Virus record (IMG/VR): IMGVR_UViG_3300020202_000133
Coordinates: 1-42,607 of that record
Reading direction: 5' to 3' (one strand)
Source of the DNA: a virus
DNA: 42,607 nucleotides
In this document: in pieces, positions 3,756 through 35,140 of the stretch
Layout: every line of letters starts with the position of its first letter
Position numbering within the stretch: the stretch's first letter is position 1
Notes under the pieces: generated by a model
What the model was told of the DNA's origin: nothing
What the model saw: the letters and a program-made list of their open reading frames with translations, nothing else
Databases searched by the model: none
Position numbers and translations under genes: made by a program

Positions 3756-3900
3756 CTACTACCCATAATGCTTTTTATGTCTACTATTGGGCCATTGTTT
3801 TTGAGATTGCTCAGACTACCCGGGGGAGGGGGTCTGACCGGGGCCTATACCTGGAAGTGTGATTCAATCCCCACCCTAAAGTTAAAATCTGAAGTCACTT
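3756..3900 (+). promoter_or_regulatory. intergenic region with two ACTACCC elements
   Basis: 145 bases without a gene. TACTACCCA occurs at 3757-3765, starting right after the HNH stop, and GACTACCC at 3814-3821, 57 bases later. The same element recurs at most operon borders in the window. The stretch after 3820 is G-rich. A promoter for 3901 is likely here but I cannot place its boxes. Confidence 0.5.
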
Positions 3901-4419
3901 ATGAACCAACTAGCGATCATCCGTAAGCATGTTAAGGTAATTGAGAAGGTGTATGGGGAGATTAGGAGTCCTGAGACGAGGGGGAGGGCGAGGGAGATGG
4001 TGGTGGATATGGTCTCGAGGATGTTGCCTGGGGAGACGAGGAATGAGGCTCCTACGGTTGTTTTGTCTTCAGGGGGTAGTCAGACCCCTGTAGATGGGGA
4101 TATGGGCTGTAATGCAAAAGAAGCGGCCCCTGAGGTCATCCTGACACCGGTGTCGGATCATGAGGTGGAGAAGGGGGGCGAGGGGTTGGTGGTGAATGCT
4201 GAGCCACGGGTGGAGATGATTGGGGGGTGGCCGGCGGTTAGTCCTGTGACGCTTTACGGGTTGGCGCCCAATCGGAGGACGTTCATTGGGCGGCTGCCGG
4301 ATAATCGGGGGGTTTTGGTTGAGAGGGGGCTGGGGCAAAACTGGAAGTGTGGGGATGGGGTTAAGTGTAGACTGATCAGGGCGGGGTCTCATCCGCTTTA
4401 CCGGACGGTGATGTTGTGA
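3901..4419 (+). CDS. hypothetical protein, 172 aa
   Basis: Two parts are visible. Residues 1-45 are helical (MNQLAIIRKHVKVIEKVYGE), then there is a low-complexity linker, and a compact C-terminal domain from about residue 105 (WPAVSPVTLYGLAPNRRTFIG, then GQNWKCGDGVKCRLIRAG) that looks like a small all-beta fold. The gene uses G-rich codons and AGG arginines more than its neighbours, hinting at separate origin. No family recognised. Confidence 0.65.
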   Translation: MNQLAIIRKHVKVIEKVYGEIRSPETRGRAREMVVDMVSRMLPGETRNEAPTVVLSSGGSQTPVDGDMGCNAKEAAPEVILTPVSDHEVEKGGEGLVVNAEPRVEMIGGWPAVSPVTLYGLAPNRRTFIGRLPDNRGVLVERGLGQNWKCGDGVKCRLIRAGSHPLYRTVML

Positions 4420-4502
4420 ATCAAGATCCCGACATGGCCGGATTCAGGAATGGCTGGTTCGTAGGGACGAAAGACATCCGCATCGAGCGGCATCCACGGT
4501 AG
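4416..4502 (+). CDS. possible tiny coupled gene, 28 aa
   Basis: GTG at 4416 overlaps the preceding stop as GTGA and opens MNQDPDMAGFRNGWFVGTKD, ending at TAG 4502. The overlap type is that of real genes in this genome, but the product is very short and has no recognisable features, so it may be chance. Confidence 0.3.
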   Translation: MNQDPDMAGFRNGWFVGTKDIRIERHPR

Positions 4503-4540
4503 CCGGGCTGCCGGCTGAGTCCGCTTGACCCTGGTCATCC

Positions 4541-4559
4541 CCCCTGCCATTAGGCGGGG
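4541..4559 (+). promoter_or_regulatory. hairpin abutting the 4560 start codon
   Basis: CCCC (4541-4544), bulged T, GCC, loop ATTA, GGC, GGGG (4556-4559) folds into a strong stem whose last base touches the ATG at 4560. The right arm would serve as a G-rich ribosome-binding region, so folding could hide it. A second perfect stem (AGCCGG/CCGGCT) lies at 4501-4516. Confidence 0.45.
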
Positions 4560-4883
4560 ATGAAACAGATTCTCCTGTTCCTGCTGGTTGTCGGGGTGGT
4601 TTTTGCCGCCCCAGTCAAGAAGGTCGGCCCCGCGGAGATCCAGAAGGTCGTTCAGTCGGCGATTCCGGGGTGGCTCGCTAAGAACCCTGTGGCCGAGAAT
4701 AATACCGGCAAGCCATCGAAGCTAATTTCCGTGACGGTGACGAGCTGCGACCCGGTTCCGGGGTGGACGGACACCTGGAGGGTTTCGGGTAAGGTAAAAC
4801 TAAGCAGCGGGAGCCGATCGTTCGACGCCCGCGTCTCAACCAAAGACGGGATAAAGGTGACCGATATCAGTCTTGGATTTTAG
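4560..4883 (+). CDS. secreted small protein with Sec signal peptide, 107 aa
   Basis: MKQILLFLLVVGVVFAAPVKK is a clear Sec signal: Lys, a leucine/valine core and an FAA-P cleavage site near residue 17. The mature protein is about 90 aa with a helix (EIQKVVQSAIPGWLAKNP) and a beta-rich rest with one cysteine. The composition suits an exported or periplasmic protein carried as lysogen cargo. Its end overlaps the convergent 4867-5049 gene by 17 bases. No family recognised. Confidence 0.75.
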   Translation: MKQILLFLLVVGVVFAAPVKKVGPAEIQKVVQSAIPGWLAKNPVAENNTGKPSKLISVTVTSCDPVPGWTDTWRVSGKVKLSSGSRSFDARVSTKDGIKVTDISLGF

Positions 4884-5049
4884 GGGAGGGTTCGGGAAGG
4901 GTCTCCCGGGCCTTGATCCATTCCTCCCCGATCTTCTCCAGTCGTTGAATGGCCATCAGAAGGGAATGCCGTTCTGCCGGGAGGATGGGGGCGCGCTGGA
5001 GAACCGGGACGATCAGGTCCAGGCAGTCTTTGGGTGTTAGTTCGTTCAT
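4867..5049 (-). CDS. small helical protein, 60 aa
   Basis: MNELTPKDCLDLIVPVLQRA begins an all-helical, acidic protein. Its ATG overlaps the stop of the methyltransferase gene as ATGA, so it is the last gene of the 6762-4867 cargo operon. It may be a partner of the enzymes upstream; the function is unknown. Confidence 0.65.
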   Translation of the reverse strand: MNELTPKDCLDLIVPVLQRAPILPAERHSLLMAIQRLEKIGEEWIKARETLPEPSPKIQD

Positions 5050-5648
5050 GGTTTGCGGATGATCCAGTGGGGGTCTTGCGTTTTGAAATTGAGGTTCATC
5101 TCACAGGAGAAGCGAATGACGGCCGCAAACACCCCGGAAAAGACAAGATGGTCGTCCCCGAACATCACGCCGCCTTTCTCCAGCAGGGGCCAAAAGTTCT
5201 TCAAGTCTTGGTAGCAGTCCTCCATGTGGTGCGAGCCATCGATGTAGATGAGTTGGGCTGTGGTTCCCTTGTGGGCCAGGTATCTCGCCCCGTCCGAAGA
5301 AGTCATCGGATAGGGGGTAATCTGGTCATGTAACCCAGCCGCCTTCACGTTTGTGAGGAATTGGTGGTAGAGTTGCGACCCACCCCACTTGTCCCGTGGA
5401 ATCTTATCTCCGTTGATCAGGTGATAGACATCACCCAGCCAGGTATCGACACAATGGACGTGGGAATCGTAGGGCCTTCCTAGTCTGGCCATCACCATGG
5501 CCGAAACCCCCTTCCAGGAACCGACCTCGATAATGGTCTTGGGCTTCAGCTCATCGATCAGTTCCTCGAAGATTGGGGCGCTCGAGGAGTGCCAGGTCTG
5601 GTTATCTACGGCGAGCCCCATGGACTCGATGTCGTCATAGGGGTTCAT
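5046..5648 (-). CDS. SAM-dependent methyltransferase, class I, 200 aa
   Basis: Motif I is visible as TIIEVGSWKGVSA (residues about 34-46), followed by HCVDTWLGD (acidic residue binding the ribose) and LIYIDGSHHMEDCYQDL (post-II region, typical of Methyltransf_24 and cephalosporin-hydroxylase-like proteins). This group usually methylates small molecules or sugars rather than DNA. It is ATGA-coupled to the glycosyltransferase-like gene upstream, which suggests joint work on a glycan or nucleotide-sugar. The substrate is unknown. Confidence 0.85.
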   Translation of the reverse strand: MNPYDDIESMGLAVDNQTWHSSSAPIFEELIDELKPKTIIEVGSWKGVSAMVMARLGRPYDSHVHCVDTWLGDVYHLINGDKIPRDKWGGSQLYHQFLTNVKAAGLHDQITPYPMTSSDGARYLAHKGTTAQLIYIDGSHHMEDCYQDLKNFWPLLEKGGVMFGDDHLVFSGVFAAVIRFSCEMNLNFKTQDPHWIIRKP

Positions 5649-6550
5649 ACGTGGTTCGGTCCGAAAATCCTTTTGAGGACTTCAATCGTTTGAAAAACCT
5701 CCTCCGGCTTGGTCTCATCCTTCCACCTCCACTCCTTTGCGACCTCGGCAACCAAATCGCTATTCGTCACCGGGAGGAGGACTTCCGAGGCGTGGGGCAT
5801 GATGAGGTTGTTGTCGATGTAGAGCTTCAGTCCCGCCTCCCGGGCCATTTTGCAGAAGTAAAAGTCCTCTCCGAGCATGTAGTTTCCCGAGTAGTCGGAA
5901 TCTGCGACGATCTCACGGATCTTGTCCGCCATCGCTTGCTCCTCGGCGTCGTTTATACCGGGATAGTTTTCTCGCTCTCTGATTAGAGCGGCAATCCGCT
6001 CAACCTTCCCCTGTCCCGTGTTCGGCCCGACGATCCCGTTGGGGAAGAACTCAAACATCGCCGGCCGCGCCACCTCATCGTCGGTCTGCTTCATCACATA
6101 GGTGAAGTGGGGGTGGGATGACTGAATCTTTTTGAGGGCATCGACCTTGATCAGGGAAAAGCCGATCGGAATCTGTGTCATCTCCATCAGCCCGTCGGGG
6201 CGAATCTCGGTGGCATCGGCAGAACCGTGAAACTTCGAGTTCACATTATGCCCCACGTAAGGGGCGCCAACGATGTCCACGTCGTGCGAGAGGAGCCGTG
6301 CGAACATGGAAAGCATCTGCTTGGAATCTTTGGAAACGACGTCCTTGTCCCAAAAGAGAAGCCCATCGAACTGTCCGTCGATCGCTACCTTCGCCAGCTC
6401 GCACCTGGCCATCGCCACAGAGGTGCCTTTCGTGACTGCCCACTGAAAGGTGTAGTTTGACTGGCGCCACATCATCAGCCGCAAAAGGGCGCCAACGTAT
6501 TCGGAGGAAAGCCCTCCCTTGAGGGGAGTTGCTACGAGGATTTTCTTCAT
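5645..6550 (-). CDS. GT-A type glycosyltransferase-like protein, 301 aa
   Basis: The start at ATG 6550 (MKKILVATPLKGG) is chosen because it overlaps the upstream stop as ATGA; an ATG 36 bases earlier would enter the previous gene. GLLFWDKDVV carries a DxD-type metal/nucleotide-sugar motif, and GEDFYFCKMAREAGLKLYID resembles the ED...R acceptor region of GT-A enzymes. It is probably cytoplasmic. Its neighbour is a sugar-type methyltransferase, so host surface or virion glycan change is the likely theme, though DNA base glycosylation cannot be excluded. Confidence 0.7.
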   Translation of the reverse strand: MKKILVATPLKGGLSSEYVGALLRLMMWRQSNYTFQWAVTKGTSVAMARCELAKVAIDGQFDGLLFWDKDVVSKDSKQMLSMFARLLSHDVDIVGAPYVGHNVNSKFHGSADATEIRPDGLMEMTQIPIGFSLIKVDALKKIQSSHPHFTYVMKQTDDEVARPAMFEFFPNGIVGPNTGQGKVERIAALIRERENYPGINDAEEQAMADKIREIVADSDYSGNYMLGEDFYFCKMAREAGLKLYIDNNLIMPHASEVLLPVTNSDLVAEVAKEWRWKDETKPEEVFQTIEVLKRIFGPNHV

Positions 6551-6762
6551 GCGAGTCGAGTACCGGACCATCCGCACTTCCGGCATTTGACCGACTTCTT
6601 GGCGGGGATGGTGGCTAGGATTAGATTGGGCGTTACGTCCACCAACTCCCTGGAGCAGCGAGGACAGGCTATTCCACAGGGACGGGGAGAGTTCAAGAGC
6701 GGGTCGGCGACACTCTGCCTGACGATCTCGTCATGCTCCCGAAGTGAAATAAGGCCCTTCAT
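6547..6762 (-). CDS. zinc-ribbon protein, 71 aa
   Basis: The start at ATG 6762 (MKGLISLREHDEIVRQ) is preferred over GTG 6798, which would put the N-terminus in the promoter region. Two CxxC knuckles (CPRCSREL and CRKCGWSG) 25-30 residues apart make a zinc ribbon. It is the first gene of the minus-strand cargo operon and is coupled to the glycosyltransferase-like gene. It may be a nucleic-acid-binding or adaptor protein. Confidence 0.7.
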   Translation of the reverse strand: MKGLISLREHDEIVRQSVADPLLNSPRPCGIACPRCSRELVDVTPNLILATIPAKKSVKCRKCGWSGTRLA

Positions 6763-6853
6763 ACGAAAGAGGACACAATGGGGAGTAATACTACCCACAA
6801 GTAAACAATAGGCTTGTGCTGTTGGGTATTAGTTTCGTTTATGTACTACCCAG
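6763..6853. promoter_or_regulatory. divergent control region before the terminase
   Basis: This region separates the cargo operon (-) from the late operon (+). It holds two TACTACCCA elements (6789-6797 and 6844-6852), 55 bases apart; the second ends one base before the terminase ATG. A partial inverted copy (GGGTATTAGT) lies between them. The 10-mer GCTTGTGCTG also occurs at 32753, in the gap after the 32503-32745 gene. No Shine-Dalgarno sequence precedes the ATG. Confidence 0.6.
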
Positions 6854-8530
6854 ATGGCAAAGGTTTACTTCGCGGACGACTTCCAGCCGGCATTCGGCCT
6901 TCCGTGGCGTCCTGTTCTCACCAGAGAACAGGTCAAGGACTGGGACTCGGAACGTCTGGCCCACTATCTGACCCTGCGAAAGAAGGTGGAGGCCGATGCT
7001 ATCAGCAATCCCGTGGGGCAGGGATGGTCACTCCCCATGTGGGAACGGGTGATGGCAAATTGGAGGAAGTACCCAATCCACGTCTTCCTGGGGGGAAACC
7101 GTTCAACCAAGAGCACTCTCGCCAGCCGTTTGGCTTTGTGGGGAGGCGCAACCATTCCAGAGGCCGACGTGCGCTGTTACCACGTCAACGAGGAGCGAAG
7201 CGTCCAAGACCAGCAGATGATGATCTACGACGCGCTCCCCGCCGCGATCAAAAACCTTCCGACAAAGAAGGGGCAGAATCACTCCCTGCAATACTCGCAG
7301 AAAAACGGGTTCACGGACAATATCTGCATCCTGCCCCCGCTTCCTGGATTTCGTAAGGGAGGCTCGATCAAGTTTGGAAACTACCGGCAGTACCAGCAGG
7401 ACGCGCAAACCGTCGAGGGGTTCAAATCCCACCTGATATGGGGAGACGAAGAAATGCCCCTCAAGATGTTCGAGACTCTTCAGTATCGAACGGTCGATTA
7501 CCATGGGCGGATTATTCTCTCCTTCACCACCCTGGCCGGATGGACGCCGCTCATTCAGGACATCCTCGGGAAAACCCAAACCATCGAGAAGCGTTACGCT
7601 CCGTTGGTCGGCCGCGAGCTTCCCATCATCCAAGAGAGCCTAAGCCGCCCCGGCACCTGCATCTACTATTTTTGGACCGAGGATAACGTCTTCATCGATA
7701 CGGCTGATTTCATTACGAAGATTCGTAGCCGGCCCAAGGACGAGATTCTGGCTCGAGCTTACGGCGTCCCTACGAAATCGGTTTCCTCTGCTTTCCCTGG
7801 GTTCAACAAGGACATCAACGTAATCCCCCACGAAAAACTCCCCTGGCTTGAGGGGAATTTGAAGAAGGACAAGCGGGGGGCGCCGGTGCCGTACAAAGTG
7901 ACGCCGTACATGGCGATCGATCCCGGCGGCTCCAAAAACTGGTTCTTGCTCTGGGTTGCGGTGGACGCCGCCGGGACGCGGTGGGTGTATCGGGAGTGGC
8001 CCGACTACGACGATTGGGCGCTTCCGGGTAACACAGCGGAGGGAAAGCCGGGCCCCGCACAGAAAGGATCTAAGAAGGGAATCAAGGATTACGTGGAGTT
8101 GATCCGGGATCTAGAGAAGGAGGACGGTCTCGATCCTTACGAGCGGTTCATAGACCCCCGGATGGGGGCCGCTGAGAAGCAGAGCGAGGACGGCGCCACC
8201 ACAATTATTTCGGACCTCGACGACGCCGGCATGACCGTGATCCCAGCGCCAGGCGTGGACATCGAAAACGGCGTACAGCTCATCAACAACCTCCTCAGCT
8301 ACGACGAGGACAAGCCCATCGATTCGCTAAACGCCCCAAAGCTCTACGTGTCGGACCGCTGCCAGAACTTCATCTACGCAATGCAGGAATATACCGGACA
8401 GGGGGGCAGGTCCGAAGCAACTAAAGACCCGATCGACTGCATGCGGTATATCGAGGTCAGCAATCCGGACTTCATCGAAACCGCCCACATAACCGACCGT
8501 TTAGCCTACGGGCGAACGGGTAGTTATTAG
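6854..8530 (+). CDS. terL: terminase large subunit, 558 aa
   Basis: The ATPase/nuclease motor that packages DNA. FLGGNRSTKST (residues about 78-88) is the Walker A motif in the GGNRSxKS form common in phage terminases. LIWGDEEMP is the Walker B region with its catalytic glutamate. MAIDPGGSKN opens the RNase H-like nuclease domain, and RFIDPRMGAAEK and ATKDPIDCMRY carry further nuclease acidic residues. The length is normal. It is followed by the portal gene as in most phages. Confidence 0.93.
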   Translation: MAKVYFADDFQPAFGLPWRPVLTREQVKDWDSERLAHYLTLRKKVEADAISNPVGQGWSLPMWERVMANWRKYPIHVFLGGNRSTKSTLASRLALWGGATIPEADVRCYHVNEERSVQDQQMMIYDALPAAIKNLPTKKGQNHSLQYSQKNGFTDNICILPPLPGFRKGGSIKFGNYRQYQQDAQTVEGFKSHLIWGDEEMPLKMFETLQYRTVDYHGRIILSFTTLAGWTPLIQDILGKTQTIEKRYAPLVGRELPIIQESLSRPGTCIYYFWTEDNVFIDTADFITKIRSRPKDEILARAYGVPTKSVSSAFPGFNKDINVIPHEKLPWLEGNLKKDKRGAPVPYKVTPYMAIDPGGSKNWFLLWVAVDAAGTRWVYREWPDYDDWALPGNTAEGKPGPAQKGSKKGIKDYVELIRDLEKEDGLDPYERFIDPRMGAAEKQSEDGATTIISDLDDAGMTVIPAPGVDIENGVQLINNLLSYDEDKPIDSLNAPKLYVSDRCQNFIYAMQEYTGQGGRSEATKDPIDCMRYIEVSNPDFIETAHITDRLAYGRTGSY

Positions 8531-8577
8531 CTTGAACGTCATATTAGGGGTACTAATGCGATGACTACCCAAACTAA
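8531..8577 (+). promoter_or_regulatory. gap before the portal gene with GACTACCCA
   Basis: GACTACCCA lies at 8563-8571, six bases before the portal ATG, with GGGTACTAAT at about 8548. The arrangement GGGTAyTArT...ACTACCCA resembles that before the terminase gene, so both genes share a bipartite leader element. No Shine-Dalgarno sequence is present. Confidence 0.5.
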
Positions 8578-10737
8578 ATGTCCAGCTACACAGCCCCTAG
8601 TTCAGTTCTACCCAAGGCCGACTTGCAGTTGGCCCCGATTGGGGAGTCTGGGCCGGACTTTAATCAGCTTAAGCTGTCGTTTCAGAAAACCGTAGCCGAC
8701 TGCAATCCCTACGTCACCCAGACATCGGTCAATTACGCCACACGCTACGCCATTTGGGGCGGCCAGTCGGCGGACGGCAAGAAGCACTCTCGCGGCCCCA
8801 ACGGACAAGTAGAACCCGTTCCGTGGGATGGCGCGAGCGATCTTCGGGTCTTCCTCGTTGATAACCTGATTAACGACAAGGTGGCGATGATCCTAGAGGC
8901 GATCAACAAAGCCTCACTTGTCGCTCAGCCGGTGGAAGGGAACGACATAAAACGGGCTAAGCAGGTTTCCACTTTCATGAAGTGGATGATCAAAACGCAG
9001 ATGCCCGACTTCGACCGGGAGGTCGAACTGATGGCGCAGTATCTCCAGGAGAAGGGCGCTGCGGTGATGGGGCAATTCTGGGAGACGTCTCAAGAAAAGA
9101 TTCTGACGGCGATCCGCCTCTCCGACCTCCAGCAGCAATTTCCCGACATCGACCTTCAACAGCTTTTGGCGTCTGGGGACGCTGACGATTACCTGAAGAC
9201 AATCTTCGAGGAAATCTACGGTGTGGGCCGGGCGAAGGCGGCGAAGATGGTGAAGGAGTTGAAGGACGAAGGCGAAACCACGGTTGCCGTTGTCGGCCGC
9301 GAGCGAAGCTATCCGGTCATGCGGGCGTTCAATCTGGACACCGATCTTTTTATCCCTCCGGACACAACCGACATTGAGCAGGCCACCGGGATTTATCGGG
9401 TCCAATATTACACGCCCGAGAAGCTCCGGTCTCTGGTTAATACGGACGGCTGGGATAAGAATTGGGTGGAGAACGCTATTGCCACCATGAAGGGCAAAAT
9501 GCTCTCGGTGACCCCGATCGAGTACATGCAGCCGATGTCGCGATCGTTCGTTTATACGCAACAGCGGTTCACGGACAAAATCGGGGTGGTTTGGGCGTAT
9601 CAGCGGCTTTCTGACGAGGATGGGGTTCCGGGAATCTACCTGACGATATTCAGTCCCGACCTTCAACCGAGCGAGGGCGGCGTATCCTGGGGCAAGCATA
9701 AGGGCTACGCGAAATTCTCGCTCTACGGAGATACCGATGGGCGCTACCCATTCGTTTTATATCGGCGCGAGTATCTGAGCCGGAAGCTTCATGACTCCCG
9801 CGGCCTCCCTGAACCACTGAAGCCACTTCAGGATACGATCAAAGCCCACAAAGACGCCAGGATCGACACGGCCAGCTACAATATCATGCCGACGATCTTC
9901 TATCCGGTGGGGCGGCCGATCCTGAAGTGGGGTGCGGGGGCGCGGGTGCCGGAACGTCGGCCTAACGAATACCACTACGGACAGCCCATCCCGTTTGACG
10001 AGACCACCGAAGCCTCTCTTGCCACTCTGAACAATGACGCCCGCGACTACGCCGGATTCGCCAAGTCAGATTCAGACGAGCCGATCAACCCGACCAAGAA
10101 TCAGGCCGAGATAAACAAGATCTTCGCCTCCTTGGCCGCATCGCTCCACCAAATTTGGAACCTTTTCAAGAAATACGGCAACGAGGTGGTCTACTACAGG
10201 GTGGTTGGGGTGCAGTCGGAGGAGGCGACCCGTTTCGAGCGAGGCCCCGAGGACGAGGATTTTATTTTCGAGTACCGCTACAACCTGCGGGACGCGGATT
10301 CCGACTATTCCTTGGAGAAGATCAAAAATATGATGGAGATTGCGGCAGCTATGGACCGGACGGGTGCCGTGGACTGGACGGAGTTCTTGCAGGTCGCGCT
10401 CGAGACCCAAGACCCGAATATCGCGGCTCGCGTTCTCCGGCCAGCCGAGGTCGGTACCCAGAAGGTCATCAACGAGGTTCAGGAAGACCTCACCAAGCTC
10501 TTTGCCGGCGTCGCCGTGAACGTGAAGCCGAACACCCCGCCTCAAATAGCGATGGTGACGATCCAAAATTGGGCTCAATCGCCCGATGTGGTCGCTCGGT
10601 ACCAGGCGGACGCGGCCTTCAAGGAGCGAGTGGACGTGTACGTCCAGCAGGTTCAGATGCTCCAGGCCCAACAGGAGAACAAGGTCATCGGTCGCCTGGG
10701 CGCTGTTCAGCCCACACCGGTAATAAACGGTTCCTAA
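8578..10737 (+). CDS. portal protein, 719 aa
   Basis: Directly after the terminase and before scaffold and capsid, with the length of podovirus-type portals. The N-terminal part has the typical PWDGASDLRVFLVDNLINDK segment, a long helical region with acidic/basic alternation, a beta-rich wing (residues about 250-400) and a helical C-terminal crown region. It forms the dodecameric ring at one capsid vertex through which DNA enters and leaves. Assignment rests on position, size and general pattern. Confidence 0.85.
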   Translation: MSSYTAPSSVLPKADLQLAPIGESGPDFNQLKLSFQKTVADCNPYVTQTSVNYATRYAIWGGQSADGKKHSRGPNGQVEPVPWDGASDLRVFLVDNLINDKVAMILEAINKASLVAQPVEGNDIKRAKQVSTFMKWMIKTQMPDFDREVELMAQYLQEKGAAVMGQFWETSQEKILTAIRLSDLQQQFPDIDLQQLLASGDADDYLKTIFEEIYGVGRAKAAKMVKELKDEGETTVAVVGRERSYPVMRAFNLDTDLFIPPDTTDIEQATGIYRVQYYTPEKLRSLVNTDGWDKNWVENAIATMKGKMLSVTPIEYMQPMSRSFVYTQQRFTDKIGVVWAYQRLSDEDGVPGIYLTIFSPDLQPSEGGVSWGKHKGYAKFSLYGDTDGRYPFVLYRREYLSRKLHDSRGLPEPLKPLQDTIKAHKDARIDTASYNIMPTIFYPVGRPILKWGAGARVPERRPNEYHYGQPIPFDETTEASLATLNNDARDYAGFAKSDSDEPINPTKNQAEINKIFASLAASLHQIWNLFKKYGNEVVYYRVVGVQSEEATRFERGPEDEDFIFEYRYNLRDADSDYSLEKIKNMMEIAAAMDRTGAVDWTEFLQVALETQDPNIAARVLRPAEVGTQKVINEVQEDLTKLFAGVAVNVKPNTPPQIAMVTIQNWAQSPDVVARYQADAAFKERVDVYVQQVQMLQAQQENKVIGRLGAVQPTPVINGS

Positions 10738-10740
10738 CTT

Positions 10741-10932
10741 ATGAATCAACTCAAGATCCGAGAATTGGATGAGCTGCTCTCATTCGTAAGGCGCTTATGG
10801 CTGTTGTCTGTCAGCGATGAAGAAGCGCAGTGCTACTTGGATAGCATTAACAGAATTCTGGACTATCGGATCGTATTAATGAAGCGCAGGGATGAACGCT
10901 TCCCATGGAACGATAGTTATATTCCTCGTTAA
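10741..10932 (+). CDS. hypothetical protein, 63 aa
   Basis: MNQLKIRELDELLSFVRRLW begins a small helical, charged protein lying three bases after the portal stop. It ends two bases before the next start. Its position between portal and scaffold suggests a head-morphogenesis helper; no family recognised. Confidence 0.65.
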   Translation: MNQLKIRELDELLSFVRRLWLLSVSDEEAQCYLDSINRILDYRIVLMKRRDERFPWNDSYIPR

Positions 10933-10934
10933 TC

Positions 10935-11225
10935 ATGCCCAAGAAGTCCCCGCAGAAGACGGCGCGTGATAGGGTGGAGGCGGCGATGCTTCCCCTCGCG
11001 GCCCTCCCCGAGTTTGGGGAGTTCATGGAGTTAGTCCGTCAAATGAAGGACTACACCGTCGAATCGATGGTTCACACGACGACCGTTGCGAGTGAGCGGG
11101 AATCCCTCTGCCACAAAGGAGAGGTGAGGGCATACCTCTGGTTTCTAGAGACTCACCGTGCCCAGAAGGAGCAGTTGGAGGAAATGGCGAGAATCCAAAG
11201 GGAACAGAATGGCCAGACCGGCTAA
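10935..11225 (+). CDS. hypothetical helical protein, 96 aa
   Basis: A basic start (MPKKSPQKTARDRVEAA) is followed by two long helices, ending in a charged coiled-coil-like tail (AQKEQLEEMARIQREQNGQ). Between portal and scaffold genes such proteins are often chaperones or minor head components. No family recognised. Confidence 0.65.
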   Translation: MPKKSPQKTARDRVEAAMLPLAALPEFGEFMELVRQMKDYTVESMVHTTTVASERESLCHKGEVRAYLWFLETHRAQKEQLEEMARIQREQNGQTG

Positions 11226-11343
11226 TACTACGTCTTCTCAGTATTCAAAATACTTATTGACGGTCTGAGTGGGTAGTACATGGGGAGAACCACTGGGGAG
11301 TATTTCTCCAGGTCTCCGGCCTAATGGGGCCAACCAATAAACC
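11226..11343. promoter_or_regulatory. intergenic region before the scaffold gene
   Basis: The 118 bases contain TGTACTACCCA on the minus strand (11280-11270), part of a 12-base match in inverted orientation to 6841-6852, and a hairpin around 11293-11311 (CTGG..GGAG/CTCCAG). TTGACG at about 11257 looks like a -35 box but no matching -10 is evident. It probably controls the scaffold-capsid genes. Confidence 0.45.
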
Positions 11344-12456
11344 ATGTCACAACAGTCTAACGAGGCCACGTCACAGCCTGCTCCGTCAGGAGCGAACACG
11401 GAAGAAAAGAAAGGCGCGGGAAACGCTTCGGTGAGTGATTTCGCTCGGAAACTGGCCGCTAAACAGGCCCCGATTCCGACGGCCCTCCCCTCAGCGGTTC
11501 AGCAGGAGGCGAAAGCCGCCGACGCGCAAAACACAGGAGAAACCAAAGAATCCCCTGTTGCCGAAGTGAAGGAGCAAGTGGAAGCGGAGGCGAAAGCCGA
11601 ACCCGAGGCCACCGAGACCCAAACTGAGGAGGTTCTTTCCCCCGAGACCAAGACTCTCGACCCAAAGCTACAAGAAATCCTTGATCGCAAGATCAACAAG
11701 GAGGTCGCCAAGCGGTACAAGCTCAAGGCGGAGATGGAGGCGAAAATTGCGGAGCTAGAGGCCCGCATTACCCAATCCCCCACGGTGGAGGAGAAGGAAG
11801 TCGTCGTCCCAGTCCCCGAGAACGTGCCACTGGCAACGATCAACGACATGGCCGCACTCGAGCAATTGAAGGTGCAGGCCAAGACGGAGATCAGATGGGC
11901 GGAACAGTGGTTGGACGAAGATATCCCCCCCGAGGGAATCCAGACCGACCGCGGCGTAGCGACAAAGAAGCAGCTCAAAGAGCTTATTCGCAACGCCCGC
12001 GTAGTGCAGGAAGACCTGATTCCCGCCCGCGAGAAGTTCCTGAACGCCCGCGACACCTCCGTGAAGACGGCCCAAGAGAAGTTTCCCTTCTTGAAGGACC
12101 CGTCTCACCCCGGATACCAAATGGCTCAAGCCGCTCGCCGCGATCCGGCGAATGCCTGGCTTCGCAGCCTCCCCAATGGGGAGTACGTCTTAGGCGTACA
12201 GATCAAGGGGTTGTTGGCGATGCAGGAGGATGAGGCAAAAGCGGATGTGAAACCATCCAGACCCAAGCCGAAACCGACCAGTGGGCAGGCAGAAATCGCA
12301 TCCGATGCGAGCATGTCCCGGGCCCCGGTTGGGGTACTGGACAAAGTAGCGATGGCAGCTGAGAGAGCGAAAATCACGGGTGGGAAAAAGAGCCTCGGGC
12401 ACAAGGACTTCGCGGCGCTTCTTCTGGCCAACCAGAAATTTCGCAACTCCCAGTAA
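11344..12456 (+). CDS. capsid scaffolding protein, 370 aa
   Basis: Highly charged and Glu/Ala/Lys-rich, with a disordered first 110 residues, then a long coiled coil (EMEAKIAELEARITQ, residues about 125-145) and a basic C-terminal tail (KPSRPKPKPTSG). This is the usual make-up of scaffolds. It lies immediately upstream of the major capsid gene. It would guide procapsid assembly and leave before maturation. Low sequence conservation is normal for this class. Confidence 0.75.
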   Translation: MSQQSNEATSQPAPSGANTEEKKGAGNASVSDFARKLAAKQAPIPTALPSAVQQEAKAADAQNTGETKESPVAEVKEQVEAEAKAEPEATETQTEEVLSPETKTLDPKLQEILDRKINKEVAKRYKLKAEMEAKIAELEARITQSPTVEEKEVVVPVPENVPLATINDMAALEQLKVQAKTEIRWAEQWLDEDIPPEGIQTDRGVATKKQLKELIRNARVVQEDLIPAREKFLNARDTSVKTAQEKFPFLKDPSHPGYQMAQAARRDPANAWLRSLPNGEYVLGVQIKGLLAMQEDEAKADVKPSRPKPKPTSGQAEIASDASMSRAPVGVLDKVAMAAERAKITGGKKSLGHKDFAALLLANQKFRNSQ

Positions 12457-12457
12457 G

Positions 12458-13456
12458 ATGATTGCAGCCACCTACAACACCGCCGGCGACCGTGAAGACC
12501 TCACGAATGCGCTGACGATTCTCACCCCGGAGGACTGCCCCAAGACCAGCACGTTCTCCAAGTCCACCGATGCATTCAACATGCTTCACGAGTGGCAAAT
12601 GGACACCCTTCTCCCCGTCACGTTTTCGGGCGTGGTTGAAGGCGCCGACGTTTCGAGCTTCACGGATCAGGTTGCCCAACGCGCTCGTGTTGGCAATCGC
12701 CAGCAACTTTTCAGCCGCACCTGGGCTGTGTCCCGTAGCCAGATGGCTTCGGACCCGGCTGGTGTGACGAACGAAGTTGCGAACTCGAAGACGAAGGCTG
12801 CTCGCGAGATGAAGCGCGACATCGAGGCGATGATCGGCTCCGACAACGACCTCCAGGTCGGTACGGGCCTGGTTCCCTCGAAGTGCCGAGCGCTTGGCAA
12901 GTGGATCTCCACGTCGCCTGGTTCCGATGTTCCGCCCACCTACACGACTCCCGCGGCCTCGATCTCGACGGCCACCTCTGGCGCTCTGACGGAATCCGTC
13001 TTCAACGACGTGTTTCAGTCGATCTTCCAACAGGTCGGTGGTCGTCGCAACTACACGCTGTACGCGGGACCGACCCTCAAACGGTCCATCTCGAAGTTTC
13101 AGCGCAACGCCTCGGGCACCACGGCAACGCAGGTCTACTTGGTCAACCAGGACGCTACGCAGCATCAAATCGACCTCAACGTCACGATCTACGAGGGCGA
13201 CTTCCACCACGTCGTCATCATGCCGGACATGTTCAACGGCCTGACCGACGGCGCGAATCCGCAGACGGTCACGGCGCAGCAGCAGAACCGCGGCTACGTT
13301 ATCGATCCGGACCTCGTGGCGATCAGCTACATGTACGGTGTCGAGCCCGTGGAGCTGCCTGACTTTGGCGGCGGCCCGAACGGCTACCTCCGTTGCTCGC
13401 TCACCCTCGAAGTCAAGAACCCGCTCGGCCTCGGCAAGTTTGCCGGTGCGAGCTAA
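12458..13456 (+). CDS. major capsid protein, SU10/DUF5309-like, 332 aa
   Basis: The start at ATG 12458 is one base after the scaffold stop; the longer in-frame opening upstream lies inside the scaffold gene. MIAATYNTAGDREDLTNALT, then VGNRQQLFSRTWAVSRSQ and the helical KAAREMKRDIEAMIGSD (spine helix), followed by a P-domain-like beta region and YMYGVEPVELPDFGG near the end, fit the HK97-fold capsid proteins of the SU10 (DUF5309) group. GC-rich, optimised codon choice differs from its neighbours, as expected for the most abundant protein. Confidence 0.85.
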   Translation: MIAATYNTAGDREDLTNALTILTPEDCPKTSTFSKSTDAFNMLHEWQMDTLLPVTFSGVVEGADVSSFTDQVAQRARVGNRQQLFSRTWAVSRSQMASDPAGVTNEVANSKTKAAREMKRDIEAMIGSDNDLQVGTGLVPSKCRALGKWISTSPGSDVPPTYTTPAASISTATSGALTESVFNDVFQSIFQQVGGRRNYTLYAGPTLKRSISKFQRNASGTTATQVYLVNQDATQHQIDLNVTIYEGDFHHVVIMPDMFNGLTDGANPQTVTAQQQNRGYVIDPDLVAISYMYGVEPVELPDFGGGPNGYLRCSLTLEVKNPLGLGKFAGAS

Positions 13457-26432: not shown

Positions 26433-26795
26433 CTAGTGTGTCAATGGGGTTATTTCTATGAGGGTGCCCCTCTGGTCTCGCCCCACCTTCTTCTGAGTCA
26501 CTATCAAGTCTATGGCTGAGGGGTCGTCTGCGGGGATGATCCCCTCGTATCTAAGCGCATCGCAAACGTACTTCACTGAGCCGTAGAGGTTATCCACGTC
26601 TAGGAGCTTCGCCCCCCTCCGTTCAATGCGGACCGTAACGCGTCCTGGGCCTGCTTCTTCATCTTGTTCCTTCCCCAATGGGTCTTTCCCAGCATTTGGT
26701 TTAGGGAGGGGGTGAGGTAGTTTGGGAGCCACAGCCGCAACGGCGTAGCCGGGCCTCCTGGTGATGTCTTCGATTTGTTCAATGGTGAGGCGCAC
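26433..26795 (-). CDS. RusA-like Holliday junction resolvase, internally out of frame, 120 aa
   Basis: The GTG start gives MRLTIEQIEDITRRPGYAV. The second half is clearly RusA-like: DVDNLYGSVKYVCDALRYEG then IIPADDPSAIDLIVTQKKV, with the DxDN and DD catalytic acidic residues. The middle (residues about 25-52) has no RusA likeness; the expected RusA N-terminal sequence (LPNYLTPSLNQMLGKTHWGR) is read in the neighbouring frame at about 26630-26728. Two compensating frame changes, or sequence errors, would explain this. As written the enzyme may be inactive. Confidence 0.7.
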   Translation of the reverse strand: MRLTIEQIEDITRRPGYAVAAVAPKLPHPLPKPNAGKDPLGKEQDEEAGPGRVTVRIERRGAKLLDVDNLYGSVKYVCDALRYEGIIPADDPSAIDLIVTQKKVGRDQRGTLIEITPLTH

Positions 26796-27699: not shown

Positions 27700-27915
27700 T
27701 CACTCGGATGATTTCGTAGGGTCTATCGATCTGTATGGGTAAGTTTGGCAGTCTAATTTCCCGGTTTTCGCGTGGACGAATCCCCCCTGTGGGCCGAGGC
27801 GAGGGACGTTGAGCCTCATGGGCTGGTGGCACTGGCCGCACGTATACCCCGAACAGGTCTCCTTGTTCCCCCTCGTGGCCGCCCACTTGATTAACCGGTC
27901 CATAGCCTCCCACAT
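27700..27915 (-). CDS. zinc-ribbon protein, 71 aa
   Basis: MWEAMDRLIKWAATRGNKET starts six bases after the previous stop. CGQCHQPMRL and a later cysteine (KLDCQTYP) suggest one zinc site. An overlapping frame ending at 27668 starts only with TTG and I prefer this one, though the last 25 residues of that alternative look protein-like too. Confidence 0.5.
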   Translation of the reverse strand: MWEAMDRLIKWAATRGNKETCSGYTCGQCHQPMRLNVPRLGPQGGFVHAKTGKLDCQTYPYRSIDPTKSSE

Positions 27916-27921: not shown

Positions 27922-28197
27922 TCAAAGCGTTGGGGTAGTATTATTGGGGTGCGAACTAGAAATTATACTCTCCGCCCCCTGTGGCGCTAGGTCCCTGACA
28001 CCCGCACCCTGCCGTTGTTGTGCGCTCGATGGAGGACGTAGAGAAGGTTTGCGCGGCCCCCGGAAGACTATCCCAGCCTTCAGGTGACGCTTCTTGATAG
28101 ATTCTACGGATATGGTGGGGCCGGGAGGGGGGTATTTGGCCATCCCCATCCGCACCGCCCACGCCACAGCATCCTTGAACGTGACTTCTTTGTTCAT
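27922..28197 (-). CDS. hypothetical protein, 91 aa
   Basis: The start at ATG 28197 overlaps the upstream stop as ATGA. MNKEVTFKDAVAWAVRMGMA is helical, followed by a basic segment (SIKKRHLKAGIVFRGPRK) and a disordered tail. Perhaps a small nucleic-acid-binding protein. An ATACTACCCC copy in the tail (27940-27932) is coding here. Confidence 0.6.
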   Translation of the reverse strand: MNKEVTFKDAVAWAVRMGMAKYPPPGPTISVESIKKRHLKAGIVFRGPRKPSLRPPSSAQQRQGAGVRDLAPQGAESIISSSHPNNTTPTL

Positions 28198-29830: not shown

Positions 29831-30081
29831 CACCAGGGAACGTCTTCATCGTTCGATTTCCGGGGAGCTGCGCGCCCGCCAAAGGTCTTCGCGTTGCCTA
29901 GAATCGCCCCCTTCTTGCCGGCGTCCCTCTCTTCCTTCGGGAGGCCCTGAACGATCATGTAACTATTCCCGTACCTGTCTCCAGGGGTCTCGATTAGAAC
30001 GAGGTCCAGATACTTGCCCTTCTTTCCCTCGAAGAGGTAGGACTTGTCGATTTTGGATACGTCGATTTTTGCGGTGATCAT
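29830..30081 (-). CDS. single-stranded DNA-binding protein, 83 aa
   Basis: The start at ATG 30081 (MITAKIDVSKIDKSYLFEGK) follows an ATGA overlap. An OB-like beta pattern (KYLDLVLIETPGDRYGNSYM) is followed by a basic loop and an acidic tip ending DEDVPW, matching the DDDxPF-type tail through which SSBs recruit partners. It is short compared with bacterial SSB but like small phage SSBs. Adjacent to the Erf annealase. Confidence 0.7.
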   Translation of the reverse strand: MITAKIDVSKIDKSYLFEGKKGKYLDLVLIETPGDRYGNSYMIVQGLPKEERDAGKKGAILGNAKTFGGRAAPRKSNDEDVPW

Positions 30082-30683
30082 GCGGCTTTGGTTTTGTTGG
30101 TTGCCCATTCGTAAAGCTTGGAGGCGTCTGCCTCGGAAAGATCAGAGAAGGCGAGAAGCCCCTTTGATTCGAGCGCCTTGAGAAGCTTGGTCGCCATCGG
30201 CCCGTCGGCGCAGAGGTCGTTCAGTTTGGAAAGCGTCTCTTTCGAGATCATCGGTCCCTTCGGCCTGTAGGGCTCTTGCTTGCTCTGCGCACTCGCGGCG
30301 TTCCCGTCGTCGTCCTCATCAGCAACGATTCCCAGGATCGCGGCCAGGGCATACCTGCGCCCGTAGGTGATTGCTGACCCCATGCCCTGGGGATCGGCCT
30401 TGGTCGGCTTGAGCGTGAGCGTCCCCGCCATCCACTGCCCAGAGGAGTGAAGGAGTGTCGTGGTAATGTTCAGCGTCTCGCCCGATGGGCTCTCGTTGAA
30501 CGCCTGGACGACAGAAAGTCCGTTAGGGGTGAGGACCGCCCTCGCCGCATCCCAAACGCTCTGCAACGTGGCGTAGGAGCTTTTGAAGTGGGGGTTGGTG
30601 CCGTCCTTCGAGGCCGGTTTAAGCGCGGCCTGAGCTTTCACAAGCGCGGCGGCCAGTTGTGCGATTTCTGTAGATTGGTTCAT
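30078..30683 (-). CDS. erf: Erf-family single-strand annealing protein, 201 aa
   Basis: The start at ATG 30683 (MNQSTEIAQLAAALVKAQAA) overlaps the upstream stop as ATGA. NPHFKSSYATLQSVWDAARA, then TTLLHSSGQWMAG and GSAITYGRRYALAAILGIVA followed by DEDDDGN are the hallmark motifs of the Erf superfamily. It forms rings on ssDNA and anneals complementary strands in phage recombination and genome circularisation. Confidence 0.92.
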   Translation of the reverse strand: MNQSTEIAQLAAALVKAQAALKPASKDGTNPHFKSSYATLQSVWDAARAVLTPNGLSVVQAFNESPSGETLNITTTLLHSSGQWMAGTLTLKPTKADPQGMGSAITYGRRYALAAILGIVADEDDDGNAASAQSKQEPYRPKGPMISKETLSKLNDLCADGPMATKLLKALESKGLLAFSDLSEADASKLYEWATNKTKAA

Positions 30684-30844
30684 ATGTCGAAAATCGCGTG
30701 GACCACCCCGAACAACAGGTAGAGCCACAAAGCTACCCCAGGCAGCCGCCACCCCTTTTTAAGGGTCATGCTGCACCGCATGGCTTGGGGAAAGACAATC
30801 ACCCAATAGGCTAAGAACGCGCAGACGATGGCTAGAAGGATCAT
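30680..30844 (-). CDS. membrane protein, two spans, 54 aa
   Basis: MILLAIVCAFLAYWVIVFPQ is one membrane helix; after a basic loop (RCSMTLKKGWRL) follows a second (GVALWLYLLFGVVHAIF). ATGA-coupled on both sides. Function unknown; it is probably an inner-membrane protein acting early in infection or in the lysogen. Confidence 0.7.
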   Translation of the reverse strand: MILLAIVCAFLAYWVIVFPQAMRCSMTLKKGWRLPGVALWLYLLFGVVHAIFDI

Positions 30845-31667: not shown

Positions 31668-31904
31668 TCAGGGTTTGGCGGCAAAGTAGGCGAGGTACTT
31701 GGCCGGGATGCGGCCGCGCTCCTTGCGGATTTGGCCCTCTTTTAGCCTGCGGGTGATTGTTGAAGGGCTAAGGCCCGACTGCTTGGCGAACTCACGAATT
31801 GTCAGGTGGGGCTTGGGCTTTTCCCGCAGAAGGCGGATCAGTTCTTCCTGATTGGATTCGATCCGCATCAAACGAGCTTCAAATCTTTCGAGGTCCAGAA
31901 TCAT
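31668..31904 (-). CDS. HTH DNA-binding protein, 78 aa
   Basis: An N-terminal coiled segment (LERFEARLMRIESNQEELIR) is followed by LTIREFAKQSGLSPSTITRR LKEGQIRKERG, a clear helix-turn-helix with an excisionase-like arrangement (a helix, xxGLSPSTITR, then the wing). It probably dimerises through the N-terminal helix. A candidate early regulator. Confidence 0.75.
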   Translation of the reverse strand: MILDLERFEARLMRIESNQEELIRLLREKPKPHLTIREFAKQSGLSPSTITRRLKEGQIRKERGRIPAKYLAYFAAKP

Positions 31905-32159: not shown

Positions 32160-32420
32160 TCAGGCGCTACGGCGGCGCTTTGCTTGGTGTGAGGCCAGGG
32201 CATCCAGGGCCTTCGGAAGCCCCATCTTCCGCCCCGCCGTCAGCAATTGGGCCTCCAGGGTGTTATTGGGGTCCACCCGGTCCTTGTATTCGCGGAGGGC
32301 GATACAAATTACGGCGCTGGCGCTTTGTTTGGGCTCCTGCTTTGCGCCGTGATCCGCAGCCCATTCGTAGAGCGAAAGCGGATTAAACGACACGCTGCGG
32401 TTCGTGGTTTTGGCGTCCAT
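32160..32420 (-). CDS. regulator-like protein, 86 aa; first gene of the recombination operon
   Basis: The N-terminal TTNRSVSFNPLSLYEWAADH resembles a beta strand plus helix, as in ribbon-helix-helix proteins (RSVSFNP as the strand), followed by SASAVICIALREYKDRVD. The C-terminus is basic. Its start lies six bases from a 19-bp palindrome (32426-32444), consistent with autoregulation. It faces the divergent 32503 gene. Confidence 0.55.
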   Translation of the reverse strand: MDAKTTNRSVSFNPLSLYEWAADHGAKQEPKQSASAVICIALREYKDRVDPNNTLEAQLLTAGRKMGLPKALDALASHQAKRRRSA

Positions 32421-32425
32421 CTTGG

Positions 32426-32483
32426 TAAGTCTTAGTAAGACTTAATGCGGCTTAATCAAGCTTTTTTCTTAAGATTTATTAAG
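32426..32483. promoter_or_regulatory. operator region between divergent genes
   Basis: TAAGTCTTAGTAAGACTTA (32426-32444) is a perfect 19-bp palindrome with one central base. It is followed by GCTTAATCAAGC, CTTAAG (32468-32473) and ATTAAG (32478-32483), the last pairing with CTTAAT (32451-32456). Dense CTTAA/TTAAG boxes between two divergent regulator-like genes suggest the lysis-lysogeny operator. Confidence 0.75.
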
Positions 32484-32502
32484 CAGCCGCTACAACCGAG
32501 CC

Positions 32503-32745
32503 ATGGGCCACCAGATAAAAAAGAAATCCGTCACGTTTTCTCTCACCGATTCCGAGCGAGAGGAACTCTTGGGAAGAGTCGCTCACCACGGCTTCGATGA
32601 TCGCAACCAGTATCTCCTGGCCCTGATGGATGTGGAAAAGAAGCTCCGGCTCGAAACGATATTCGATAAGGCGGAGCGCAGACTGTACTTCAAGCTAGAC
32701 CGGTTTTCTAAAGCAGGCGCCTCTTCGGCGGCGGCTAAGACGTAG
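32503..32745 (+). CDS. ribbon-helix-helix-like repressor candidate, 80 aa
   Basis: MGHQIKKKSVTFSLTDSERE has a beta strand (KSVTFSLT) followed by a helix (DSEREELLGRVAHHG) and a second helix (RNQYLLALMDVEKK), the order of ribbon-helix-helix repressors; the tail is basic. It faces 32160-32420 across the palindromic operator and precedes the integrase. A candidate lysogeny regulator. Confidence 0.6.
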   Translation: MGHQIKKKSVTFSLTDSEREELLGRVAHHGFDDRNQYLLALMDVEKKLRLETIFDKAERRLYFKLDRFSKAGASSAAAKT

Positions 32746-33163: not shown

Positions 33164-33175
33164 CCGATTCGAATT

Positions 33176-34456
33176 ATGTCACAATCACTCATAACGGACG
33201 CGGATAATCCACAGACTGCCACGCGATTTGCCACGGTTTCGCCACTGCCTGCCACAGATAGGCCACAGGAACGACGAACCCGACTTCTGCAACAACGTTT
33301 GCCCAAGGGGATCGTAATCGGGTCCTGGGACGATGGGAGGCCCCGGCCCTACTTCGTTCGCTTCGGCGAACATCGAACAATGGAAAGCTATGCGGACGAA
33401 GCCGAGCGCAACGACCGAGCGGAGGCGCTGGAAAAGGAACAACTGGAGAACGGCGTGTCGGCCTTGAGGTTTGATCCCAAGGAATGGCGGGAATACGCGG
33501 CATTCAGAACGCGAACCAAGGCCACCCTCCCGGAAATTGAAATAGCCTGGAGTCGATTCAGGGAGACGATCGCTCAGGCCCAGAAGACCTCCGAACTGAT
33601 CGCTTTCTACAGATCCAAAAGGAGTACGGCGGGACGATCCAAGATGGGGCTTAAGCAACGGGATCTAGCCCTCGGAAGGTTCGATGCCTTTCTCGGCCAC
33701 CACCCCTATCCCGCAGTAGACGAGGCGAAGATAGATGACTGGATTGGGTGGCTTCGGTCAAAACACGGACTCGGGGACGAGGCAGTGCTCCGGCATTTCT
33801 CCGTGATTCGTGCGATGTTCAATTTTCCGCCTATCAAGAAAATCTGTCGGACGAATCCCTGCGACTACGTTGAGCCGCCCAGGGTGAAGGAAAAGGACGA
33901 GGTTGCCGTCTTCAATCTTCGCCAGGCCTTCGACTTCTTTAAGGCCAATCGAAATCAAAGGGAGGTCGGGCGGCTTGCGACCGAGGCTTTTGGGGGGCTC
34001 CGGTTCTCGTCTGCGGCCAAGCTACTGCTGCCCGATTTGGACTTCGCAGAACAGGGCATAACCCTCCCGGGATCGAAGCATAAAAGCGAGCGGAGGCATT
34101 ATGTGGACGGCTTCCCGAAAAACCTTTGGAGGTGGCTGAAGTTCGCGCCGGCGGACTGCTGGGACATTTCTGAAAGAAATTACATGCGCCTCAAGAGCGA
34201 GGCGTTCATCCGGGCCGGTTTCTCGAACCCCGGAAATGTCCTCCGGCACACGATGCCCACAATGCACCTGTCGGCGTTCAAGAACGCCCCCGCTCTTGCA
34301 ACTATTCTTCAACACCGAAACTCCACCATGCTTTATCAGCGGTACAAGGGGCGTGGGGTTCCTCAGAGTGTGGGGCGGGCATACTTCATGATCACCCCGA
34401 AGACCGTTCTCGTGTCCTTTGAGCGTTTCTGCGCATTCGTGGGGGTGAGGCCATGA
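33176..34456 (+). CDS. int: tyrosine recombinase integrase, 426 aa
   Basis: A catalytic domain from about residue 250: EAFGGLRFSS (first Arg), PGSKHKSERRHYV (Lys region), NVLRHTMPTMHLSAF (second Arg; the usual His of HxxR is Asn), ILQHRNSTMLYQRYKG (His, then the Tyr nucleophile). A core-binding domain covers about 140-230 (WIGWLRSKHG). The end resembles integrases I recall from Verrucomicrobia, which also carry NxLRH. The exact start is uncertain; the first 40 codons carry a phased CCAC array and could be non-coding. ATGA-coupled to the next gene. Confidence 0.85.
   Translation: MSQSLITDADNPQTATRFATVSPLPATDRPQERRTRLLQQRLPKGIVIGSWDDGRPRPYFVRFGEHRTMESYADEAERNDRAEALEKEQLENGVSALRFDPKEWREYAAFRTRTKATLPEIEIAWSRFRETIAQAQKTSELIAFYRSKRSTAGRSKMGLKQRDLALGRFDAFLGHHPYPAVDEAKIDDWIGWLRSKHGLGDEAVLRHFSVIRAMFNFPPIKKICRTNPCDYVEPPRVKEKDEVAVFNLRQAFDFFKANRNQREVGRLATEAFGGLRFSSAAKLLLPDLDFAEQGITLPGSKHKSERRHYVDGFPKNLWRWLKFAPADCWDISERNYMRLKSEAFIRAGFSNPGNVLRHTMPTMHLSAFKNAPALATILQHRNSTMLYQRYKGRGVPQSVGRAYFMITPKTVLVSFERFCAFVGVRP
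33209..33266 (+). repeat. six CCAC words phased at about 11 bp
   Basis: CCAC starts at 33209, 33219, 33231, 33242, 33252 and 33263: steps of 10, 12, 11, 10 and 11 bases, i.e. one DNA turn. They fall in different codon frames, so the pattern is not simply a repeated peptide. More CCAC words lie at 33058, 33067 and 33077. Arm-type integrase or DnaA-like binding is possible. Confidence 0.5.
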
Positions 34457-34716
34457 GCAACGGAGACAAAGGCATTACAGGGCTCCTTGTGGCCCTCCTA
34501 TTGATCACTGGCGCGATATTTGGCGCCATCCGATACATCGACTGGGGCAACTCCCCCGGTCGCTACCAAGCCCTCTCTCACGGCCAAGACATCTACCTCA
34601 TCGACACCAAGACCGGGGAAGCCTGGGTCAGAAATTATGGGCTATGGGTTCCGTCGGTCTCTCCCCTCAAAACCAAACCCACCCTCAAAAACGACTTCAA
34701 CCGTATCAAACCATGA
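34453..34716 (+). CDS. membrane-anchored protein, 87 aa
   Basis: MSNGDKGITGLLVALLLITG has a single membrane helix (LLVALLLITGAIFGAIRYI), and then a periplasmic or extracellular domain (RYQALSHGQDIYLIDTKTGE, AWVRNYGLWVPS) that looks like a small beta unit. ATGA overlaps on both sides tie it to the integrase transcript, so it may be expressed in the lysogen. Confidence 0.65.
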   Translation: MSNGDKGITGLLVALLLITGAIFGAIRYIDWGNSPGRYQALSHGQDIYLIDTKTGEAWVRNYGLWVPSVSPLKTKPTLKNDFNRIKP

Positions 34717-35105
34717 CACCACTAGAACAGGCCCGGGACGCCATTAAGGCCCAGATCAGCCAGGATGAGAAGAAACTCGCCCAGCTCCAAACCTACTTGC
34801 AGGAGCAGAAGAGCCTCCTGGCTTCGATAGAACAGTCGATTTTAAGGGCCGGGGAGGCCCGGGCGGGGGTGTTGGCCCAAACAGGGAGCAAAGCCCCTCC
34901 TAATGCGCTCAAAGAGGCCATCCTGGGGGTCCTGGATAGTAAGTCGCCCATGAAGCGCGCCCGCATCATCGAACTCCTTCAGCAGACAAACTACCCCTAT
35001 TCCCTGAACCCCACCCACGTCACCAAATACTTGGCTGAGTTGGCAGAAGACAAAAAGGTGAAGACCTCCGGCAAATTCCCCCACCTGGAGTACACCAAGA
35101 AATAG
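34713..35105 (+). CDS. coiled-coil plus winged-helix protein, 130 aa
   Basis: The start at ATG 34713 follows ATGA coupling. Residues 1-50 form a coiled coil (QISQDEKKLAQLQTYLQEQK); residues 70-125 (LKEAILGVLDSKSPMKRARI, IELLQQTNYPYSLNPTHVTK, YLAELAEDKKVKTSGKFPHL) form a winged helix with a basic recognition helix. It may regulate the lysogenic genes. The stop leads into the gene-free stretch. Confidence 0.7.
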   Translation: MTPLEQARDAIKAQISQDEKKLAQLQTYLQEQKSLLASIEQSILRAGEARAGVLAQTGSKAPPNALKEAILGVLDSKSPMKRARIIELLQQTNYPYSLNPTHVTKYLAELAEDKKVKTSGKFPHLEYTKK

Positions 35106-35109
35106 GATG

Positions 35110-35140
35110 GGTAGTAATTTTCTTCTTGATTGGGTAGTTG
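35110..35140 (-). promoter_or_regulatory. two ACTACCC elements at the border of the structured stretch
   Basis: On the minus strand, AACTACCCA (35140-35132) and TTACTACCCA (35119-35109) lie 23 bases apart, just after the stop of the 34713 gene. They are direct copies in the same orientation and mark the left border of the 35159-35846 structured stretch. Confidence 0.5.

Follow-up and report, generated by a model that had tools for sequence, protein, structure and literature searches.

The IMG/VR virus record IMGVR_UViG_3300020202_000133, analysed here over its whole length of 42,607 bases (the window; GC 58%), derives from an uncultivated tailed phage. Genes for terminase, a presumed portal and the major head (capsid) protein are followed along it by an ERF recombinase gene, a gene for a small winged helix-turn-helix (HTH) protein, two divergent genes for small ribbon-helix-helix (RHH)-like proteins and an integrase-like gene (Table 1). 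The gaps between genes carry repeated copies of a short word, ACTACCC, which an earlier note, made from the letters alone, had described as a (T/G)ACTACCC element at operon borders and ascribed to a DNA-binding protein or a phage-specific promoter part. This word is concentrated in the gaps and forms one unit of paired and clustered half-sites, an arrangement that points to dispersed operators.

ACTACCC occurs 18 times in the window against 2.6 copies expected from shuffles, and none of 100 shuffles reached 18; the longer KACTACCC occurs 13 times against 1.07. The earlier chance figure of about five, obtained by equal-base arithmetic, was conservative. All copies listed at that time are present, with coordinates that agree to within one base, and the full count adds minus-strand copies at 27933 and 8518 together with six copies inside genes (3631, 3683, 4074, 13487, 31236, 34990). 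The coding count does not exceed expectation. Gaps were defined from a purposely gene-rich annotation and make up 5.9% of the window (2.5 kb). They nevertheless hold 11 of the 18 copies (binomial p 7e-10), where an order-2 model expects 0.35 and the maximum over 300 simulations was 3, so that the intergenic excess is clear. ACTACCC is the commonest 7-mer of the gaps, and no other gap 7-mer equals its count. Six gap copies lie on the plus strand and five on the minus strand, and the element is held or touched by 9 of the 26 gaps longer than 20 bases. The copies at 8518 and 11271 are oriented against the genes that they border. Since the flanking bases of the copies share no further similarity, it is the word itself that recurs; these unrelated flanks argue against a dispersed repeat family, and a dispersed repeat or mobile element was rejected on this ground. 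Genome-wide, the leading over-represented 7- and 8-mers are ACTACCC, CTCGAAG and their extensions, and the top 9-mer is TACTACCCA (6 against 0.17 expected); a literature search for the element's 9-mer gave no match. CTCGAAG (27 copies, 8.6 expected) and CTCGAAGA (14 copies, 2.3 expected) are spread over the genome, and their excess probably reflects codon usage.

A second enriched word, ACTCCCCA (11 copies, 1.9 expected), differs from the ACTACCC half-site by one base. On sequence it belongs to the same element, which gives a half-site TGGGKAG(T) with the reverse complement ACTMCCCA. The earlier note overlooked this variant, and it is the variant that exposes the dyads: two perfect 19-bp copies of TGGGKAG-N5-CTMCCCA share the 5-bp spacer, and no exact inverted pair was found at any other spacer from 0 to 24. 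Half-sites are also arranged directly, in three clusters (11270/11281/11294, 26408/26420 and 35108/35131). In all, 11 neighbouring pairs lie within 60 bp of each other, against 1.6 under random placement and a maximum of 9 in 5,000 trials. Seven of the 11 spacings (11, 12, 12, 12, 13, 23 and 23) fall at 11-13 or 22-24 bp, or one and two helical turns, and the half-sites are phased at 10.5 bp (Rayleigh p 0.0015). This spacing test was designed post hoc on few pairs, with all exact half-sites including those in coding sequence, and is support rather than proof. The GGGTAyTArT half reported upstream of the terminase and portal copies is also present, as GGGTATTAGT at 6824-6833 and GGGTACTAAT at 8548-8557.

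Table 1. Half-sites and half-site arrays of the window, followed by the genes and the palindrome discussed in the text.
Feature	Positions	Strand	Context
ACTACCC half-site	3758-3764	+	In spacer of predicted promoter TTGCAA-16-TAATGC (-10 at 3766), upstream of 3901-4419 gene
ACTACCC half-site, next base G	3815-3821	+	Edge of conserved G-rich non-coding element
Perfect dyad TGGGGAG-TAATA-CTACCCA	6779-6797		Between divergent 5645-6586 gene and terminase
TGGGTATTAG ... TACTACCCA pair	6823-6852	+	Around putative terminase -10; TTGTGC 6814-6819, TTTATG 6838-6843
ACTACCC half-site	6845-6851	+	Over putative terminase start site; ATG at 6854
ACTACCC half-site	8518-8524	-	Last codons of terminase
GGGGTACTAATGCGATGACTACCCA	8547-8571	+	Putative portal -10 between half-sites; TTGAAC 8532-8537, TAATGC 8554-8559, ACTACCC 8564-8570
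Three tandem half-sites TGGGTAG / TGGGGAG / TGGGGAG	11270-11310	-	Starts 11270, 11281, 11294; then CTCCA; before 11344 gene
ACTACCC half-site	19787-19793	+	Within predicted promoter TTGAAA-16-TAAGCA
ACTCCCC half-site	19819-19825	+	Adjoins ATG at 19826
Two direct half-sites, 12 bp apart	26408-26427	-	Starts 26408, 26420; overlap minus-strand promoter-like TTGACA-N18/19-ATATAT
ACTACCC half-site	27933-27939	-	18-24 nt upstream of possible start of 27700-27915 open reading frame
Direct half-sites, 23 bp apart	35108-35149		Starts 35108, 35131; directly after integrase operon
Dyad TGGGTAG-TTGTT-CTCCCCA	35131-35149		Includes second of the direct half-sites 35108/35131
Terminase gene	6854-8530		
Presumed portal gene	8578-10737		Named by position and relatives; no family match
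Major head protein gene	within 12380-13456
ERF recombinase gene	30078-30752	-
78-residue winged-HTH protein, Cox/Xis-like	31668-31904	-	Candidate binder; link to sites putative
Small RHH-like proteins	32160-32420 and 32503-32745		Divergent genes; RHH likeness judged by eye
Perfect 19-bp palindrome TAAGTCTTA-G-TAAGACTTA	32426-32444		Between the divergent RHH-like genes (32420, 32503)
Integrase-like gene	33176-34456		PHROG integrase, E 5.7e-9

Half-sites are found on either strand, paired as dyads or repeated directly, in clusters and with helical phasing, and this bears out the earlier preference for a DNA-binding protein over an RNA signal. An RNA element, either a hairpin or a translation-initiation signal carried in the transcripts, could account for the copies that adjoin start codons (6845, 19819) and for the dyads, which could form short hairpins. 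A single-stranded signal would, however, hardly occur in direct-repeat clusters, in either orientation to the gene that follows and at phased spacings, and this explanation is very improbable. A Rfam-type search of the window found no known RNA family.

Strand and location bear likewise on site-specific nicking. Pseudomonas phage tf and its relatives carry nick sites of consensus TACT/RTGMC, which share the TACT beginning and a similar site number (13-14) with the element described here, and the major head protein of the window shares 26% identity with its tf counterpart, a distant capsid homology. The tf-group sites lie on one strand and are spread throughout coding sequences, whereas those of the window occupy both strands and sit in gaps. 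On these grounds tf-type nick sites were rejected, as an explanation with hardly any probability left; the word WACTRTGAC does not occur in the window.

Promoter positions were predicted by footprinting against related records and with a matrix trained on relatives only. The terminase promoter of the relatives reads TTGnnn-18-TAATnn in seven of the eight with this gap type, with TGGACA in the eighth, and their portal promoter is mostly TTGACA/TTTACA-16-TAATnn or TAGAAG. The window appears to keep this layout, with TTGTGC-18-TTTATG before terminase and TTGAAC-16-TAATGC before portal. At both, ACTACCC starts 1 or 4 bases past the putative -10 hexamer, over the presumed start site, and the GGGTAyTArT half either overlaps this -10 or is placed on its far side. 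The relative-trained matrix gives its best gap match at 3766, where the spacer contains ACTACCC, and further matches at 19800, 8554 and 26419; the copies at 3758, 19787 and 26420 lie inside predicted promoters. A strict scan for Escherichia coli sigma-70 promoters found none near the sites, and E. coli-type sigma-70 sequences are depleted from positions 1-20000 (0 against 7.9 in shuffles). No Shine-Dalgarno sequence is evident at gene starts in the window or in the relatives G001-G016, and the conserved promoters lie very close to the start codons, so that near-leaderless transcripts are likely.

These positions also bear on the proposal that ACTACCC is itself part of the promoter, as a downstream or initially transcribed element after the -10 hexamer. 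TAAT occurs within 10 nt upstream of 5 of the 18 sites against a background of 3.5% (p 3e-4), and ACTACCC directly follows the presumed -10 of terminase and portal. In other predicted promoters, however, the word stands in the spacer and not after the -10, its minus-strand copies would fire against operons, and a phage RNA polymerase was not recognised among the proteins searched. Moreover, the terminase and portal promoters of the relatives are conserved without ACTACCC. As the word is missing from the relatives, the phage-specific promoter part of the earlier note, if taken as a conserved core element, falls away, and a promoter element peculiar to this phage is improbable.

The relatives were compared for the element as a whole. 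The window terminase is 62-75% identical to those of other uncultivated viruses, and for the head protein the identity reaches 93%, while named phages are distant (the head protein is 40% identical to that of phage C75C1). No intergenic excess of ACTACCC was found in the relatives tested, and the orthologous gaps before terminase and portal, in the related records that were compared, do not contain it. Among ten genomes tested, the window has the strongest gap excess of this word; in G008 most of the excess comes from an 18-bp tandem repeat, and in G006 it comes from another word, clustered locally. In the latter, copies of CCCTGCGTT on either strand are grouped in the space that separates two convergent genes (L096, 957-1096). 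An IMG/VR scan for the 19-bp dyad yielded three contigs, without a clear further excess of half-sites, and these matches are probably due to chance. Of the two outcomes that the earlier note named as refuting, a lack of conservation in related genomes is thus what the sequence shows, which tells against a conserved promoter part, whereas a lack of intergenic excess is clearly not. Within the set of sequences compared, only this lineage has the element. The operator reading survives this non-conservation, because operators and the specificity of their repressors change rapidly from phage to phage, as in immunity systems (compare PMC9283540, PMC6550527).

A regulator or nucleoid protein of the host, recruited by the phage, could also occupy such sites; a response regulator acting on direct repeats one turn apart is an example. 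Direct repeats are indeed found at 11-13 bp, and no phage protein is proven as the binder. Relatives whose structural proteins are 60-90% identical nevertheless lack the word, which they would be expected to share if they shared the host group, and this origin is decidedly unlikely. Two prophage searches for the host returned only one match, a 7-kb contig of an alphaproteobacterial metagenome-assembled genome with a coverage of 1.8.

Taken together, the word is best explained, with a probability of about 0.55, as the half-site of operators dispersed over the genome, to which a single phage-specific regulator would bind, most likely as a repressor. Nick sites, a core promoter, an RNA element and a dispersed repeat all fit worse than operators. 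In the proposed mechanism, one sequence-specific regulator, probably encoded by the phage, would bind single TGGGKAG(T) half-sites and would occupy pairs cooperatively, one or two helical turns apart and in direct or inverted order, along one face of the DNA. Once bound, it would most likely block RNA polymerase at terminase, portal and other late and non-late units, because the half-sites overlap presumed start sites or sit in promoter spacers. Copies at operon ends could serve as roadblocks.

The stoperators of the L5 type, found in cluster A mycobacteriophages, are a special case of such an operator system. There, a repressor at dispersed sites silences prophage promoters and halts elongation. 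The L5 repressor has more than 20 sites in promoters and short intergenic spaces, with many copies of one lineage-specific word (PMC9283540). In keeping with this model, the intergenic copies number more than a dozen and stand where transcription units start and end, an integrase-like gene suggests a temperate phage, and the sequence is lineage-specific, as immunity systems would predict. However, each L5 site is an asymmetric 13-mer oriented according to transcription, whereas the window has a 7-8-bp half-site in mixed orientation with dyads. The divergent regulatory gap at 32421-32502 has no site, and a repressor of this kind was not recognised in the window. Immunity of the stoperator kind is therefore unlikely.

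Which protein would bind the operators can be addressed more tentatively. On fold and spacing, the best candidate regulator is the Cox/Xis-like winged-HTH protein, with perhaps one chance in four. It matches phrog_575, a family of Cox-like excisionases and repressors (E 4.4e-7), and PF13412 (E 2.2e-6). Among solved folds, Pukovnik Xis and BldC, both known head-to-tail DNA binders, come closest to its predicted structure, although this match is weak (E 0.1, prob 0.98) and comes from a single-sequence model. Protomers of Cox/Xis-type proteins bind one DNA turn apart, and several of them also regulate transcription (PMC7498355; PMC11963761). The Cox/Apl/Xis-type spacing feature is present here, with direct spacings of 11, 12, 13 and 23 bp. 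Apl of phage 186 and Cox of P2 are likewise small winged-HTH proteins of integrase-bearing phages that act both as excisionases and as regulators, on sites one helical turn apart that overlap promoters and lie near the integrase (PMC7498355). In contrast, Apl sites are direct repeats of weak specificity confined to the attachment (att) site and pR-pL, while those of the window are genome-wide, follow a strict word and include some inverted dyads. That a Cox/Xis-like winged-HTH protein regulates the whole genome, with strict half-sites of 8 bp, paired directly or inversely, at the majority of transcription units, is a distinctly unlikely proposition as it stands.

Several observations weigh against the operator reading or its candidate protein. 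None of the relatives has the word; relatives of the Cox-like protein were not found in seven records searched, nor were IMG/VR relatives of the 80-residue RHH-like protein and of the integrase. Head-to-tail direct repeats are the main targets of Xis/Cox proteins, but two of the best pairs here are inverted, beside the three direct clusters, and the weak specificity of such proteins contrasts with the strictness of the word. The overlap between half-sites and predicted promoters is barely above background (6/12 against 22%, p 0.03; 6/20, p 0.28). Finally, the lack of a site in the integrase-proximal regulatory gap would be odd for a master lysogeny repressor.

The RHH-like proteins, named in the earlier note as possible binders, are less likely to fill this role. 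Neither has a family match. The 80-residue protein is modelled with two helices and no strand at low confidence (predicted local distance difference test score 68, predicted template modelling score 0.34), and the model was not used. They more likely act at their own gap, because a palindrome is found there and TGGGKAG is not; ACTACCC is absent from it as well. These divergent genes and their palindrome are reminiscent of the mnt/arc arrangement of P22.

Other features of the window were noted near the element or apart from it. The non-coding stretch at 3819-3900, before the 3901 gene, is conserved as GGGGGAGGGGGTC ... GATTCAATCC ... AAGTTAAAATC and is recognisable in three relatives (G002, G006, G012). 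It has no Rfam match in the window and is possibly a structured RNA or a packaging or att-like element. On the minus strand at 26300-26449, where the late operon ends, the promoter-like TTGACA-N18/19-ATATAT is followed by 100 nt that fold more stably than shuffled sequence (z -2.7) and close with a long hairpin, a possible antisense or small RNA. Direct repeats of 94-96% identity (801-847 / 1574-1620 and 452-487 / 1451-1486) lie within adjacent minus-strand genes or at their ends, which suggests a recent gene duplication.

Most of what is known in detail on dispersed operators comes from mycobacteriophages. Another such system, of different structure and in an uncultivated tailed-phage group, would indicate that the use of a single short site to silence or coordinate a whole genome has arisen more than once. 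If the Cox/Xis-like protein is indeed the genome-wide regulator, excision and late gene control would be run by one protein, in a dispersed-operator system distinct from both the Apl/Cox switches and stoperators. A word restricted to gaps can thus be strongly supported in one genome even though no relative conserves it, and the half-site, together with its candidate protein, offers a handle on regulation in this phage.

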